Assembly (NCBI GenBank): GCA_030539395.1
Contig: JAUNSC010000013.1
Span: forward strand, 16,732 to 80,731
Source: Eubacteriales bacterium
GTDB lineage: Bacteria > Bacillota > Clostridia > Lachnospirales > Lachnospiraceae
Length of the DNA: 64,000 nt
Direction: 5' to 3'
Position numbers and translations under genes: made by a program. Of the stretch, positions 2,887 through 60,931 are shown piece by piece. The first letter of the stretch is position 1. The number at the start of each line of letters is the position of its first letter. The notes under the pieces are model-generated. The model made no database searches and was not told the origin of the DNA. It worked only from the letters and a program-made list of their open reading frames with translations.

Positions 2887-2900
2887 CGAACGGACGTTCT
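2887..2900 (+). promoter_or_regulatory. LexA (SOS) operator 2
   Basis: CGAAC-GGAC-GTTCT matches the Gram-positive LexA box in all but the last base. It begins 9 bases after the -10 hexamer, over the expected transcription start. Together with operator 1 (centres 33 bp apart, about three helical turns) it predicts tight SOS control of yneA. The lexA gene itself is not in the window. Confidence 0.85.
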
Positions 2901-2933
2901 TTATGATGTCAGAAAGATGAGGGGGATTATAAA

Positions 2934-3266
2934 ATGAGTAGAGCAAAAAGAAGAAGATTACGTCAAATTCAGAGAAACAGAAGGATTGCATCTGTTTTTG
3001 CACTTGTCATCATGACTTTTTCGGTTTCTATTTTATTCCATAATTTTAGTGTACGTGCTGAAAAGCCTGCCGCCTATAAGTATTATACTGATATCCGTGT
3101 GGGATGCGGTGATACACTCTGGGGCATTGCAGAGCAATATATGACGGATGAATATAAAAATCCTGCAGCATATATTCGTGAAATCAAAGAAATCAATAAT
3201 ATTGGTTCAGATATACAGTATGGACAATATCTGACCATACCGTATTATTCAGAAGAACTGAAGTAA
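2934..3266 (+). CDS. yneA: YneA-like SOS cell division inhibitor (membrane anchor + LysM)
   Basis: A 110-residue protein with a basic cytoplasmic end, one membrane segment (about 20-40, FALVIMTFSVSILF) and an extracellular LysM domain (about 54-103) with the typical DTLWGIAEQY start and YGQYLTIP end. This is the size and plan of Bacillus YneA, which delays septation while DNA is repaired. Two LexA boxes and a consensus promoter directly upstream support the SOS assignment more than the sequence itself, which is short. The start follows GAGGGGG 9 bases upstream. Downstream lies a recombinase gene, as in Bacillus (yneA-yneB), though of another recombinase family. A general LysM cell-wall protein is the alternative. 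Confidence 0.8.
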   Translation: MSRAKRRRLRQIQRNRRIASVFALVIMTFSVSILFHNFSVRAEKPAAYKYYTDIRVGCGDTLWGIAEQYMTDEYKNPAAYIREIKEINNIGSDIQYGQYLTIPYYSEELK

Positions 3267-3428: not shown

Positions 3429-3507
3429 TAATTTGCTCCATCAATCTATACGACAAACCATAGTTTTTCCAATAGATTATTGTCAAAAGAAAGGAATAAA
3501 CACAAAT

Positions 3508-4566
3508 ATGGACAAAAATCAGCTTACATACCATGAACAGGTTAAAATTGATAATACCTTGCGTCTAAGAGAACTTTTAAAATCAATGCCGCCTTTTGTC
3601 AAAGATTATTTTCGGGCAATTGAGCCAACAACATCCACACGTACACGAATTTCCTACGCATATGATATCCGCGTTTTTTTTCAGTTTTTATTAGATGAAA
3701 ATCCGGCATTTAGAAATAAATCTATGGATGATTTTACTGTAGATGTATTAGATCAGCTAAAGCCGGTTGATATTGAAGAATATCTGGAATATCTGAAAGT
3801 TTACCAGTCAAATGATAATTTGAAAACAAACGGTGAACGAGCTTTAAAACGCAAAATGGTTGCTCTCAGAGGCTTTTACGCATATTATTTTAAACGGGAA
3901 TTAATTAAAACAAATCCCACTGTCCTTGTAGATATGCCCAAGATCCATGACAAGGCAATTATACGCCTTGATGCGGATGAAACAGCCTCTCTGTTGGATT
4001 ATATTGAGCATTGCGGGGCTTCTTTATCCGGACAGAAAAAAATATACTGGGAAAAGACAAAAGTCCGTGATCTGGCCATTGTAACGCTTTTGCTGGGCAC
4101 TGGAATCCGTGTTTCCGAGTGTGTGGGACTGGATATCAAGGATATAGATTTTAAAAATAACGGGATTAAGGTTGTCCGAAAAGGCGGAAATGAAATGGTT
4201 GTATATTTTGGTGATGAAGTTGAAAAAGCCCTTATAAATTATCTTGAACAAAGAAATGGGATCACAGCCCTGGCCGGTCATGAAAATGCTTTATTTCTAT
4301 CTACCCAGAGAAAACGTATCGGGGTTCAGGCAGTGGAAAATCTGGTAAAAAAATATGCAAGTCAAATTACAACCACCAAAAAAATTACTCCGCACAAATT
4401 ACGGAGTACTTACGGAACAAGCCTTTATCAGGAAACAAACGACATATATCTTGTGGCGGATGTCCTGGGTCATAAAGATGTAAATACAACGAAAAAACAT
4501 TACGCTGCCATGGATGATCAGAGAAGGCGCATGGCTGCCACTGCTGTCCGACTGCGCGAAGAATAA
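3508..4566 (+). CDS. Xer-type tyrosine recombinase (XerS/XerCD-like)
   Basis: Site-specific DNA recombinase of 352 residues. All six catalytic residues are visible: Arg201 (GTGIRVSE), Lys225 (VRKGG), His296 and Arg299 (TPHKLRS), His322 (LGHKD) and the nucleophile Tyr332 (KKHYAAMD). The N-terminal core-binding domain (about 15-150) starts with ELLKSMPPFVKDYF, like single-recombinase XerS proteins. The length (XerC/D about 300, XerS about 356) also fits XerS. ATG 3508 is chosen because a GAAAGGA site precedes it and the promoter overlaps the earlier ATG at 3424. No phage genes are nearby, so a phage integrase is unlikely. A dif-like site follows 4 bases after the stop. Likely job: resolving chromosome dimers. 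Confidence 0.82.
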   Translation: MDKNQLTYHEQVKIDNTLRLRELLKSMPPFVKDYFRAIEPTTSTRTRISYAYDIRVFFQFLLDENPAFRNKSMDDFTVDVLDQLKPVDIEEYLEYLKVYQSNDNLKTNGERALKRKMVALRGFYAYYFKRELIKTNPTVLVDMPKIHDKAIIRLDADETASLLDYIEHCGASLSGQKKIYWEKTKVRDLAIVTLLLGTGIRVSECVGLDIKDIDFKNNGIKVVRKGGNEMVVYFGDEVEKALINYLEQRNGITALAGHENALFLSTQRKRIGVQAVENLVKKYASQITTTKKITPHKLRSTYGTSLYQETNDIYLVADVLGHKDVNTTKKHYAAMDDQRRRMAATAVRLREE

Positions 4567-4570
4567 TTAT

Positions 4571-4597
4571 ATTTTACATAATATAGTTATGTATACT
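4571..4597. other. dif-like Xer recombination site
   Basis: Two 11-bp imperfect inverted arms, ATTTTACATAA (4571-4581) and TTATGTATACT (4587-4597), flank a 5-bp AT centre. Read on the - strand the right arm TTATGTAAAAT differs by one base from the XerD-binding arm of known dif sites (as I recall them from E. coli and B. subtilis), and the left arm ends in CATAA like XerC arms. The usual centre is 6 bp, so the spacing is one base short. It lies directly behind a Xer-family recombinase gene and at the point where the two gene blocks converge. Confidence 0.62.
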
Positions 4598-58987: not shown

Positions 58988-60931
58988 ATGATTTTATCTT
59001 GCAATCATATATCAAAATCTTTCGGCGTAAACACAGTATTAAAAGATGTTTCCTTTCATGTTGAAGAACGTGAAAAAACAGCTATTGTCGGTATCAATGG
59101 TGCAGGAAAATCCACTCTCCTTAAAATCATTATGAATCAGATGAATGCTGACAGCGGTGATGTAGTAATATCAAAAGGGGCAACCATCGGATATCTGGCC
59201 CAGCATGATGCCGTATCCAGCGGTAATACTATCTATGAAGAAATGCTTGATACCAAAAAAGATGTAATCGAACTTGAAGCACGCATCCGCACTTTAGAAC
59301 AGGATATGCGACATCTGCAGGGACAGGCTCTGACAAATACACTTGAAACATATAATCGTCTTATGACAGAATTTGAGAATAAAAACGGCTATGCCTGTGA
59401 AAGTGAGATAACCGGTGTTTTAAAAGGACTCGGATTTGAAGAAACTGAATTTGGCAAGCAGGTAAATACCCTGTCCGGGGGGCAGAAAACCCGTGTTGCT
59501 CTCGGAAAACTGCTCCTCTCCCGCCCGGATATTATCCTCCTTGATGAACCTACTAACCATCTTGATATGAATTCTATTGCCTGGCTGGAAACATATCTCC
59601 AAAATTATGACGGTGCTGTTATTATCGTTGCCCATGACCGCTATTTTCTCAATAAAGTTGTTTCCAAAATTGTGGAACTGGATCAGTCTCATGCATCTGT
59701 TTTTATGGGAAATTATAATGAATATGCCAGAAAACGTGCCAGCATCCGGGAGGCGCAGATGAAAGCCTACCTCAATCAGCAGCAGGAAATCCGCCATCAG
59801 GAGGAAGTCATTGCCAGATTGAAATCTTTCAACAGAGAAAAAAGTATCCGCCGTGCAGAAAGCCGTGAAAAAGCACTGGATAAAATTGAACGCCTTGATA
59901 AGCCTGTTGAAGCCGCCAGTGAAATGAAGCTTCATTTGGAACCTCGCATATTAAGCGGAAATGATGTTCTTACAGTCCGCGGATTATCGAAGACCTATGG
60001 CACCCAGAATCTGTTTTCAAATCTGGATTTTGAGATAAAGCGGGGCGAAAAAGTGGCTATTATCGGCGATAACGGTACCGGTAAGACAACTCTTTTAAAA
60101 ATCATCAATCAGGTGATCAGCCAGGACAGCGGATCTTTTGAACTTGGAAGCAAAGTACATATTGGATATTATGACCAGGAACATCATGTTCTTCATATGG
60201 AAAAAACTTTGTTTGAAGAACTGTCCGATGCATATCCTGCTCTCACCAACACCCAGATAAGAAATGTCCTTGCATCTTTTCTTTTTACAAATGATGATGT
60301 ATTTAAGAGGATCAGTGACTTAAGCGGCGGAGAGCGGGGACGCATATCTCTCGCGAAACTCATGCTCTCTGAAGCAAACTTTCTGATATTGGACGAGCCG
60401 ACAAACCACCTGGATATTACCTCCAAAGAAATTTTAGAAAATGCTTTGAAACAATATACCGGTACTGTCCTGTATGTTTCTCATGACCGTTATTTCATCA
60501 ATGAAACCGCCACACGGATACTGGAATTAACCGGAAGTACTCTGGTAAATTATATAGGAAATTATGACTACTATCTTGAAAAAAAGGATGAACTGACTCC
60601 GATTTATGCTCCTGGTGCTTCGGCCCGGTCTGTCAGATTTTTCTCCGGAGCATCATCTTCATCTGCCTCATCACAGCAGGAATCTGAAACAAAAAAAGAC
60701 TGGAAACTGCAAAAAGAAGAACAGGCAAAAGAACGGAAACGTCAAAATGATCTTAAAAAGACTGAAGAACGCATTCAGCAATTAGAACAGCGTGATGGGG
60801 AAATTGATGCTCTTCTGGCATCACCTGATGTTTATTCAGATGTCCGGAAATGTCTGGAACTCAACAACGAAAAATTTTCTATCTCACAGGAACTTGAAAC
60901 CCTGTATGAGCTTTGGGAGAAGCTGATGTAA
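58988..60931 (+). CDS. ABC-F family ATPase (ribosome-associated)
   Basis: A soluble protein of 647 residues with two ABC domains and no membrane part; ABC-F proteins act on the ribosome as translation factors or in antibiotic protection. Domain 1: GINGAGKSTLLK (about 36), LSGGQKTRVALGKLL (about 162), LLDEPTNHLD. The linker (about 235-310) is helical and charged. Domain 2: GDNGTGKTTLLK (about 358), LSGGERGRISLAKLM, LDEPTNHLD. A C-terminal coiled coil (about 570-647) follows a Ser-rich stretch. The layout is that of housekeeping YdiF/Uup-like types; resistance is not indicated. The ribosome binding site is weak. Confidence 0.92.
   Translation: MILSCNHISKSFGVNTVLKDVSFHVEEREKTAIVGINGAGKSTLLKIIMNQMNADSGDVVISKGATIGYLAQHDAVSSGNTIYEEMLDTKKDVIELEARIRTLEQDMRHLQGQALTNTLETYNRLMTEFENKNGYACESEITGVLKGLGFEETEFGKQVNTLSGGQKTRVALGKLLLSRPDIILLDEPTNHLDMNSIAWLETYLQNYDGAVIIVAHDRYFLNKVVSKIVELDQSHASVFMGNYNEYARKRASIREAQMKAYLNQQQEIRHQEEVIARLKSFNREKSIRRAESREKALDKIERLDKPVEAASEMKLHLEPRILSGNDVLTVRGLSKTYGTQNLFSNLDFEIKRGEKVAIIGDNGTGKTTLLKIINQVISQDSGSFELGSKVHIGYYDQEHHVLHMEKTLFEELSDAYPALTNTQIRNVLASFLFTNDDVFKRISDLSGGERGRISLAKLMLSEANFLILDEPTNHLDITSKEILENALKQYTGTVLYVSHDRYFINETATRILELTGSTLVNYIGNYDYYLEKKDELTPIYAPGASARSVRFFSGASSSSASSQQESETKKDWKLQKEEQAKERKRQNDLKKTEERIQQLEQRDGEIDALLASPDVYSDVRKCLELNNEKFSISQELETLYELWEKLM

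Follow-up and report, generated by a model that had tools for sequence, protein, structure and literature searches.

In the literature found, the XerS/difSL system is described for streptococci and lactococci. According to the available excerpts of its description, difSL is a 31-bp site with the arms TTTCCGAAAA and TTTTCTTGAAA, in which one repeat is a base longer and the central region comprises 11 bp (PMC5357621). The dif site of B. subtilis ends in TTATGTAAACT (PMC3025954, in excerpt), and XerD of B. subtilis unloads SMC at the terminus, as stated in the accessible parts of PMC12322038, PMC8357415, PMC8242196, PMC13342612, and PMC9733580. No title or abstract on XerS/dif in Lachnospiraceae or on XerD sites beside XerS was found among the matches listed from the open-licence literature, and no paper in that literature was found to contain both XerS and Lachnospiraceae.

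The recombinase gene and the chromosome terminus

The window, which is the whole 64,000-nucleotide stretch of DNA that was analysed, contained a gene on the + strand (3508..4566, start codon inferred) that encoded a XerS-type tyrosine recombinase of 352 aa. The residues R, K, H, R, H, and Y were present by eye, which agrees with the full catalytic set that the original prediction had assigned to this protein. The best NCBIfam family was XerS (NF003462) with 219.5 bits, below the cut-off of 267. In a quick tree of 26 rows, which carried a warning of long-branch joining, the recombinase clustered with XerS of Lactobacillales, apart from XerD (SH-aLRT 95). Strong relatives (E < 1e-59) were detected in 180 of the 200 genomes of the family, and the named relatives were Lachnospiraceae.

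The GC skew of a chromosome should turn at dif. The cumulative G-C maximum (computed, no strand) was located at position 4357 of the window, and the window and the whole 80,731-bp contig agreed on this position; the skew of this genome refers to that single contig of an assembly in 77 contigs. All genes up to 4566 were on the + strand and those after it on the - strand, with the exception of an ABC-F gene at 58988-60931. Furthermore, dnaA and the recombinase gene were 0.47-0.49 of the circle apart in five of five single-contig relatives (G035, 0.485; G046, 0.473; G085, 0.488; G185, 0.472; and G191, 0.482), and the skew of G046, sampled over 0.8 Mb, changed from + to - inside the 20 kb containing the recombinase gene. 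A chromosome terminus at this locus is therefore supported, because the skew turns here and the recombinase gene lies opposite dnaA in the single-contig relatives. The original prediction had suggested a terminus here from the switch in gene orientation, a switch that was confirmed, and the skew extremum of the contig indeed lay beside the palindrome that it had singled out (4571-4597).

Palindromes on either side of the recombinase gene

A de novo search for palindromes common to stretches of up to 20 kb round the gene (79 fetched, 74 used) returned the palindrome at 4571-4597, here termed site A5, and the pattern ATTCGNNAAA-N6-TTTNNCGAAT. In the window, the latter corresponded to site U (3444..3477, no strand), ATCTATACGACAAA - CCATAG - TTTTTCCAATAGAT, with 14-bp arms (3444-3457 and 3464-3477) and a 6-bp centre (3458-3463), located 30 bp upstream of the recombinase ATG at 3508. 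With a spacer of 6, the U motif gave 20 exact matches and 11 matches with one mismatch; the other spacers of 2-10 gave zero exact matches and at most two with one mismatch. No other place in the window matched, even with 3 mismatches allowed (0.02 matches expected). A refined pattern (up to 2 mismatches) was found in 126 of the 200 family genomes, as against 22 for the reversed control, counted from the table; 7 of the 126 had two or more matches on one strand, and the genome studied here had the pattern at one place. In G121, the only genome of the same genus in the draw, site U was identical over 32 bases and located 15 bp from the gene.

With as many as 3 mismatches allowed, site U was present in 55 of 80 stretches (the 79 plus the window) and not found in the other 25, and in all 55 it lay upstream of the recombinase gene. 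The arms were conserved and the centre was variable in these loci, although the conservation of the arms leans to the pattern because the 55 were chosen with it. The distance to the gene was within 300 bp in 30 loci and 0.3-7.4 kb in 25, and site U is therefore not tied to the promoter. A role as operator of xerS was rejected on account of these kilobase distances and of G144, in which site U was 56 kb from the recombinase gene. The skew peak of G144 was 112 bp from U; in G166, where U was about 37 kb from the recombinase gene, the peak was 1.9 kb from U and 36 kb from the gene. U and the gene were at least 1.4 kb apart in 15 loci, and the skew peak was nearer U in 10 of them, including seven in which it was at most 160 bp away (G003, G047, G056, G084, G096, G131, and G185), and nearer the gene in five (G054, G082, G086, G110, and G150). 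Site U behaved as a dif should, with mostly one copy per genome at the skew turn, despite these five loci.

The exact U half-site TCTATTCGGAAAA was also detected on a plasmid of Streptococcus salivarius and on one of S. equinus, where it began 88 bp ahead of the annotated xerS and the partner arm was less similar. It was not found upstream of xerS on the Carnobacterium and Ligilactobacillus plasmids or upstream of the pCY360 recombinase, so that two of the four Lactobacillales plasmids examined, both from Streptococcus, had the half-site upstream of xerS.

Site U is likely the dif of the XerS-type recombinase, because the skew often turns at U where U is far from xerS. The sequence, position, conservation, copy number, and skew of the site point in this direction, and recombination at U is predicted from them. 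The original prediction had proposed a XerS-type recombinase linked to its dif as in streptococci; the linkage was upheld, and the dif is most likely another palindrome than the one at 4571-4597, namely site U, located 5' of the gene. These results suggest that a XerS-type recombinase is encoded throughout a large family, with a likely dif that could be derived from sequence.

Several other observations were made on such loci. A recombinase of 70% identity, preceded by a U-like site, was encoded on a contig labelled Bacteriophage sp. (L246, MT835555), which probably represents bacterial DNA or a terminus-located prophage. A gene for a YneA-like SOS division inhibitor (2888-3266; 48 bits against a cut-off of 60) just preceded site U in the window, and an exact GAACN4GTTC box was located 34 bp upstream of this gene. 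Of 79 relatives, 50 had a YneA-like gene no more than 10 kb from xer, and the exact box was within 300 bp in 16 of the 20 YneA-like genes that were upstream on the recombinase strand (random stretches, 1.2%). A YneA-like gene beside the likely dif might link DNA damage to division arrest and to the resolution of dimers. The Butyrivibrio plasmid pCY360 (L242, 2285-3487) has an Xer-type gene of its own, at whose annotated start there is a perfect palindrome, AGTTCGCTAAATGTTGTATTTAGCGAACT; the two perhaps form a plasmid Xer/dif module.

Site A5 (4571..4597, no strand), ATTTTACATAA-TATAG-TTATGTATACT, consists of two XerD-type 11-bp arms (4571-4581 and 4587-4597) round a 5-bp centre and begins 4 bases past the recombinase stop, as originally described. 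The arms were complementary at 9 of 11 positions. Because the window holds 28 palindromes with a 5-bp centre and at least 9 of 11 pairs, the palindrome by itself is unremarkable. Each arm, however, matched the B. subtilis XerD arm TTATGTAAACT at 10 of 11 positions, and the likeness to a XerD arm that had been pointed out for one arm was thereby borne out for both. When up to 3 mismatches were allowed, the A5 motif, TTTACATAA-N5-TTATGTAAA, matched the window once (0.09 matches expected; one match in 8 of 100 shuffles); in the whole genome it had one match at up to 1 mismatch, another at 2, and another at 3.

Across 110 loci, which include the window and some near-duplicates, a spacer of 5 gave 10 sites with 0 mismatches and 5 with 1, and spacers of 2-4 and 6-11 gave none below 3 mismatches. 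The same palindrome recurred 3' of the recombinase gene in several relatives, with a variable 5-bp centre, as the comparison of such flanks proposed with the original prediction had envisaged. The doubt that it had expressed over the 5-bp centre was well placed, since five is the rule for this class, and this is one more reason against the label of a classical dif. A stricter pattern at up to 1 mismatch was found in 42 of the 200 family genomes at 63 sites (reversed control, 1 of 200); the copy of the window has 2 mismatches to this pattern and is outside the count. The spacing of 5 bp was kept in these 42 genomes of as many genera, and both arms of the consensus had the sequence of the XerD arm in the B. 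subtilis dif site. A5 departs from the dif layout of 11+6+11 bp with unlike XerC and XerD arms in its 5-bp centre and its two XerD-type arms. At up to 2 mismatches, a spacer of 6 was tried and proved uninformative (91 of 200 genomes for spacers 5 and 6 alike); at 0 mismatches, spacer 5 gave 15 sites versus 1 for spacer 6, by eye, among the matches listed. A variant with one additional base in an arm, TTATNGTAAA, was weakly enriched.

The 42 genomes had 1-4 copies of A5 each, with at least two in 17. In 27 of them A5 was on the contig of the recombinase gene, at 41 sites; the distance to the gene was at most 10 kb for 25 of these and at most 50 kb for 39, a nearness that is favoured by the short contigs of many genomes. 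A5 lies in the vicinity of the terminus, mostly in genomes with XerD. The two sites beyond 50 kb were in G024 (145 kb) and G149 (84 kb). On contigs above 3 Mb, the distances to the gene were 6 and 15 kb (G046), 7 kb (G085), 32 kb (G102), and 2 kb in addition to the 84 kb (G149). In G119 and G102, 31-32 kb separated the sole A5 from U, and the skew peaked 4-5 kb from U. In the window itself, the skew peak was 227 bp from site A5 and 896 bp from site U; U, the recombinase gene, and A5 together span less than 1.2 kb, and this peak makes no decision between the two sites. Among the eight genomes with at least two A5 sites and U on one contig, A5 was on both sides of U in five (G024, G033, G046, G082, and G118) and not in G003, G096, and G149, by eye. 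Close pairs of A5, 40 to 560 bp apart, were seen in L205, L218, and L221.

XerD and the role of site A5

The genome encoded a XerD equivalog on another contig (C64:18682-19545; 346 bits, cut-off 329.6), whose gene adjoined a stage II sporulation protein M-like gene (64 bits, cut-off 100). No XerC above its cut-off was found among the 11 scanned of the 16 tyrosine recombinases of this genome. The proposed single-recombinase system is thus not strictly one, and the XerS-type protein is not the only Xer recombinase of the cell, whereas a XerS/difSL module would be expected to have a single one. XerD-like genes (E <= 1e-60) were detected in 111 of the 200 family genomes, 74 of them above the curated cut-off. 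They were present in 37 of the 42 A5 genomes (one weak) versus 74 of the 158 genomes outside this set (Fisher p 1e-6), and XerD without A5 was accordingly common (74 genomes). On the recombinase tree, A5 needed 17 changes and XerD 19, and independent pairs went the same way in 3.8, the opposite way in 0.1, and were tied in 7.1 (median p 0.125); the link on the tree is in the expected direction and, with too few pairs, below significance. Five A5 genomes were without a full XerD: G065, G085, and G173 carried a truncated XerD-like gene, and no XerD-like gene, not even a truncated one, was seen in G001 (74% complete) and G033. Both A5 and XerD were present in G006 (67% complete) and G048 (93% complete), in which the xerS match was weak.

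An alignment of 61 XerD sequences, consisting of that of the genome studied here and 60 hand-chosen ones, showed all six catalytic residues in 40, and 14 others differed at the hairpin Lys alone, where the alignment is unsure. Seven deviated further, namely those of G065, G085, and G173, which are truncated and have no Tyr, that of G137, with Asn in place of Tyr, and those of the A5 genomes G024, G114, and G194 (altered catalytic residues). Site A5 was present in six of these seven genomes, among them the three with a truncated XerD. By eye, no frame just past the stop of the three truncated genes resumed the protein, and that of G085 was preceded by a similar neighbour gene. A XerD match was absent in three congeners of G085, and its truncated gene may therefore simply be decaying.

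Site A5 was originally read as the dif of the neighbouring recombinase, in keeping with its palindrome, its distance of 4 bp from the gene, the same position in several relatives, and a skew turn that is nearer A5 than U in the window. However, the upstream palindrome U has the properties of a dif and is far more widespread (126 versus 42 of 200 genomes), and A5 was not found in most genomes that carry the recombinase (strong in 180 of 200), has more than one copy in 17 of 42, and is separated from the skew turn in G119 and G102. The reading of A5 as the cognate dif was therefore rejected as highly improbable, given the properties of U and the copy number, skew, and XerD association of A5. A second recombination site used by XerD only, either for backup dimer resolution or as the target of integrating elements, would fit the arms and palindrome, which suit a XerD homotetramer, and the catalytic residues, which are complete in 40 of 61 XerD and differ only at the unsure Lys in 14 more. 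It is nevertheless unlikely: the centre has 5 bp, the centres of copies inside one genome are mostly unlike, which should hinder recombination between them, and A5 is kept in three genomes whose XerD is without the tyrosine.

XerD-type arms and a patchy distribution could also be left by a worn remnant of an ancestral XerCD dif to which nothing binds today. This is very unlikely in view of a 5-bp spacing that 42 genomes, each from a different genus, share while the centre varies, of several copies per genome in 17, and of arms neither of which is XerC-like. A palindrome of about 25 bp might likewise be read by any dimer, such as another terminus or regulatory protein, but the identity of the consensus arms with the XerD arm of B. 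subtilis dif and the association of A5 with the presence of XerD make such a protein rather improbable.

Site A5 is most likely a candidate docking site of XerD rather than a dif, and a terminus with two sites, in which U is the dif of XerS and A5 a docking site of XerD, possibly for SMC unloading, is judged somewhat more probable than its alternatives combined. The XerS-type recombinase would act on U as a homotetramer and so resolve chromosome dimers, and the unlinked XerD would dock as a dimer on A5, a pair of XerD half-sites; both actions are predicted from the DNA and protein sequences. XerD may have been retained for a task without DNA cutting, because recombination would have passed to XerS and no XerC was detected among the recombinases scanned, and a candidate for this task is the unloading of SMC condensin on reaching the terminus. 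This possible purpose of A5 is the most speculative step. The SMC role of XerD in B. subtilis is reportedly independent of catalysis, XerC, and dif. A bolder and tentative proposal, held at less than even probability, is that in this family XerD, in the absence of XerC and in several lineages also of its own catalytic residues, would do nothing but bind DNA, docking on the 5-bp-spaced palindromes round the terminus for SMC release, with dimer resolution left to XerS, as a natural split of the two roles of XerD. Genomes in which nature may have separated recombination from the SMC role would allow the idea of SMC unloading to be examined comparatively.

Comparison with known Xer systems

The locus resembles XerS/difSL of streptococci and lactococci, as far as the excerpts available describe it (PMC5357621), in the recombinase of about 356 aa, in a terminus site adjoining the gene, and in a GAAAA-type half-site, which is shared with the two plasmid-borne streptococcal xerS genes; the related palindrome next to the gene is site U at 3444-3477. 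It differs in that the protein scored below the NCBIfam XerS cut-off, in that the two arms of U are both 14 bp long, round a centre of 6 bp, whereas difSL is described there with unequal repeats and an 11-bp central region, and in the additional XerD gene and XerD-type site of the genome. XerH/difH of epsilonproteobacteria is likewise described, in the available part of PMC2731167, as a single recombinase linked to a dif-like palindrome, but the similarity of the recombinase to the solved XerH was weak (44 bits, versus 80 for XerA and 70 for XerD).

The arms of A5 match the XerD arm of the XerCD/dif systems of B. subtilis and E. coli. In contrast to dif of these systems, A5 has no XerC-type arm, has a 5-bp centre, occurs in several copies in many genomes, and is off the skew turn in two genomes where it is far from U. 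In B. subtilis, XerD sites of the terminus region are said to exist besides a separate dif. Compared by description only, in the excerpts available, the SMC-unloading sites of B. subtilis XerD are similar to A5 in being XerD-type sites in the terminus region.
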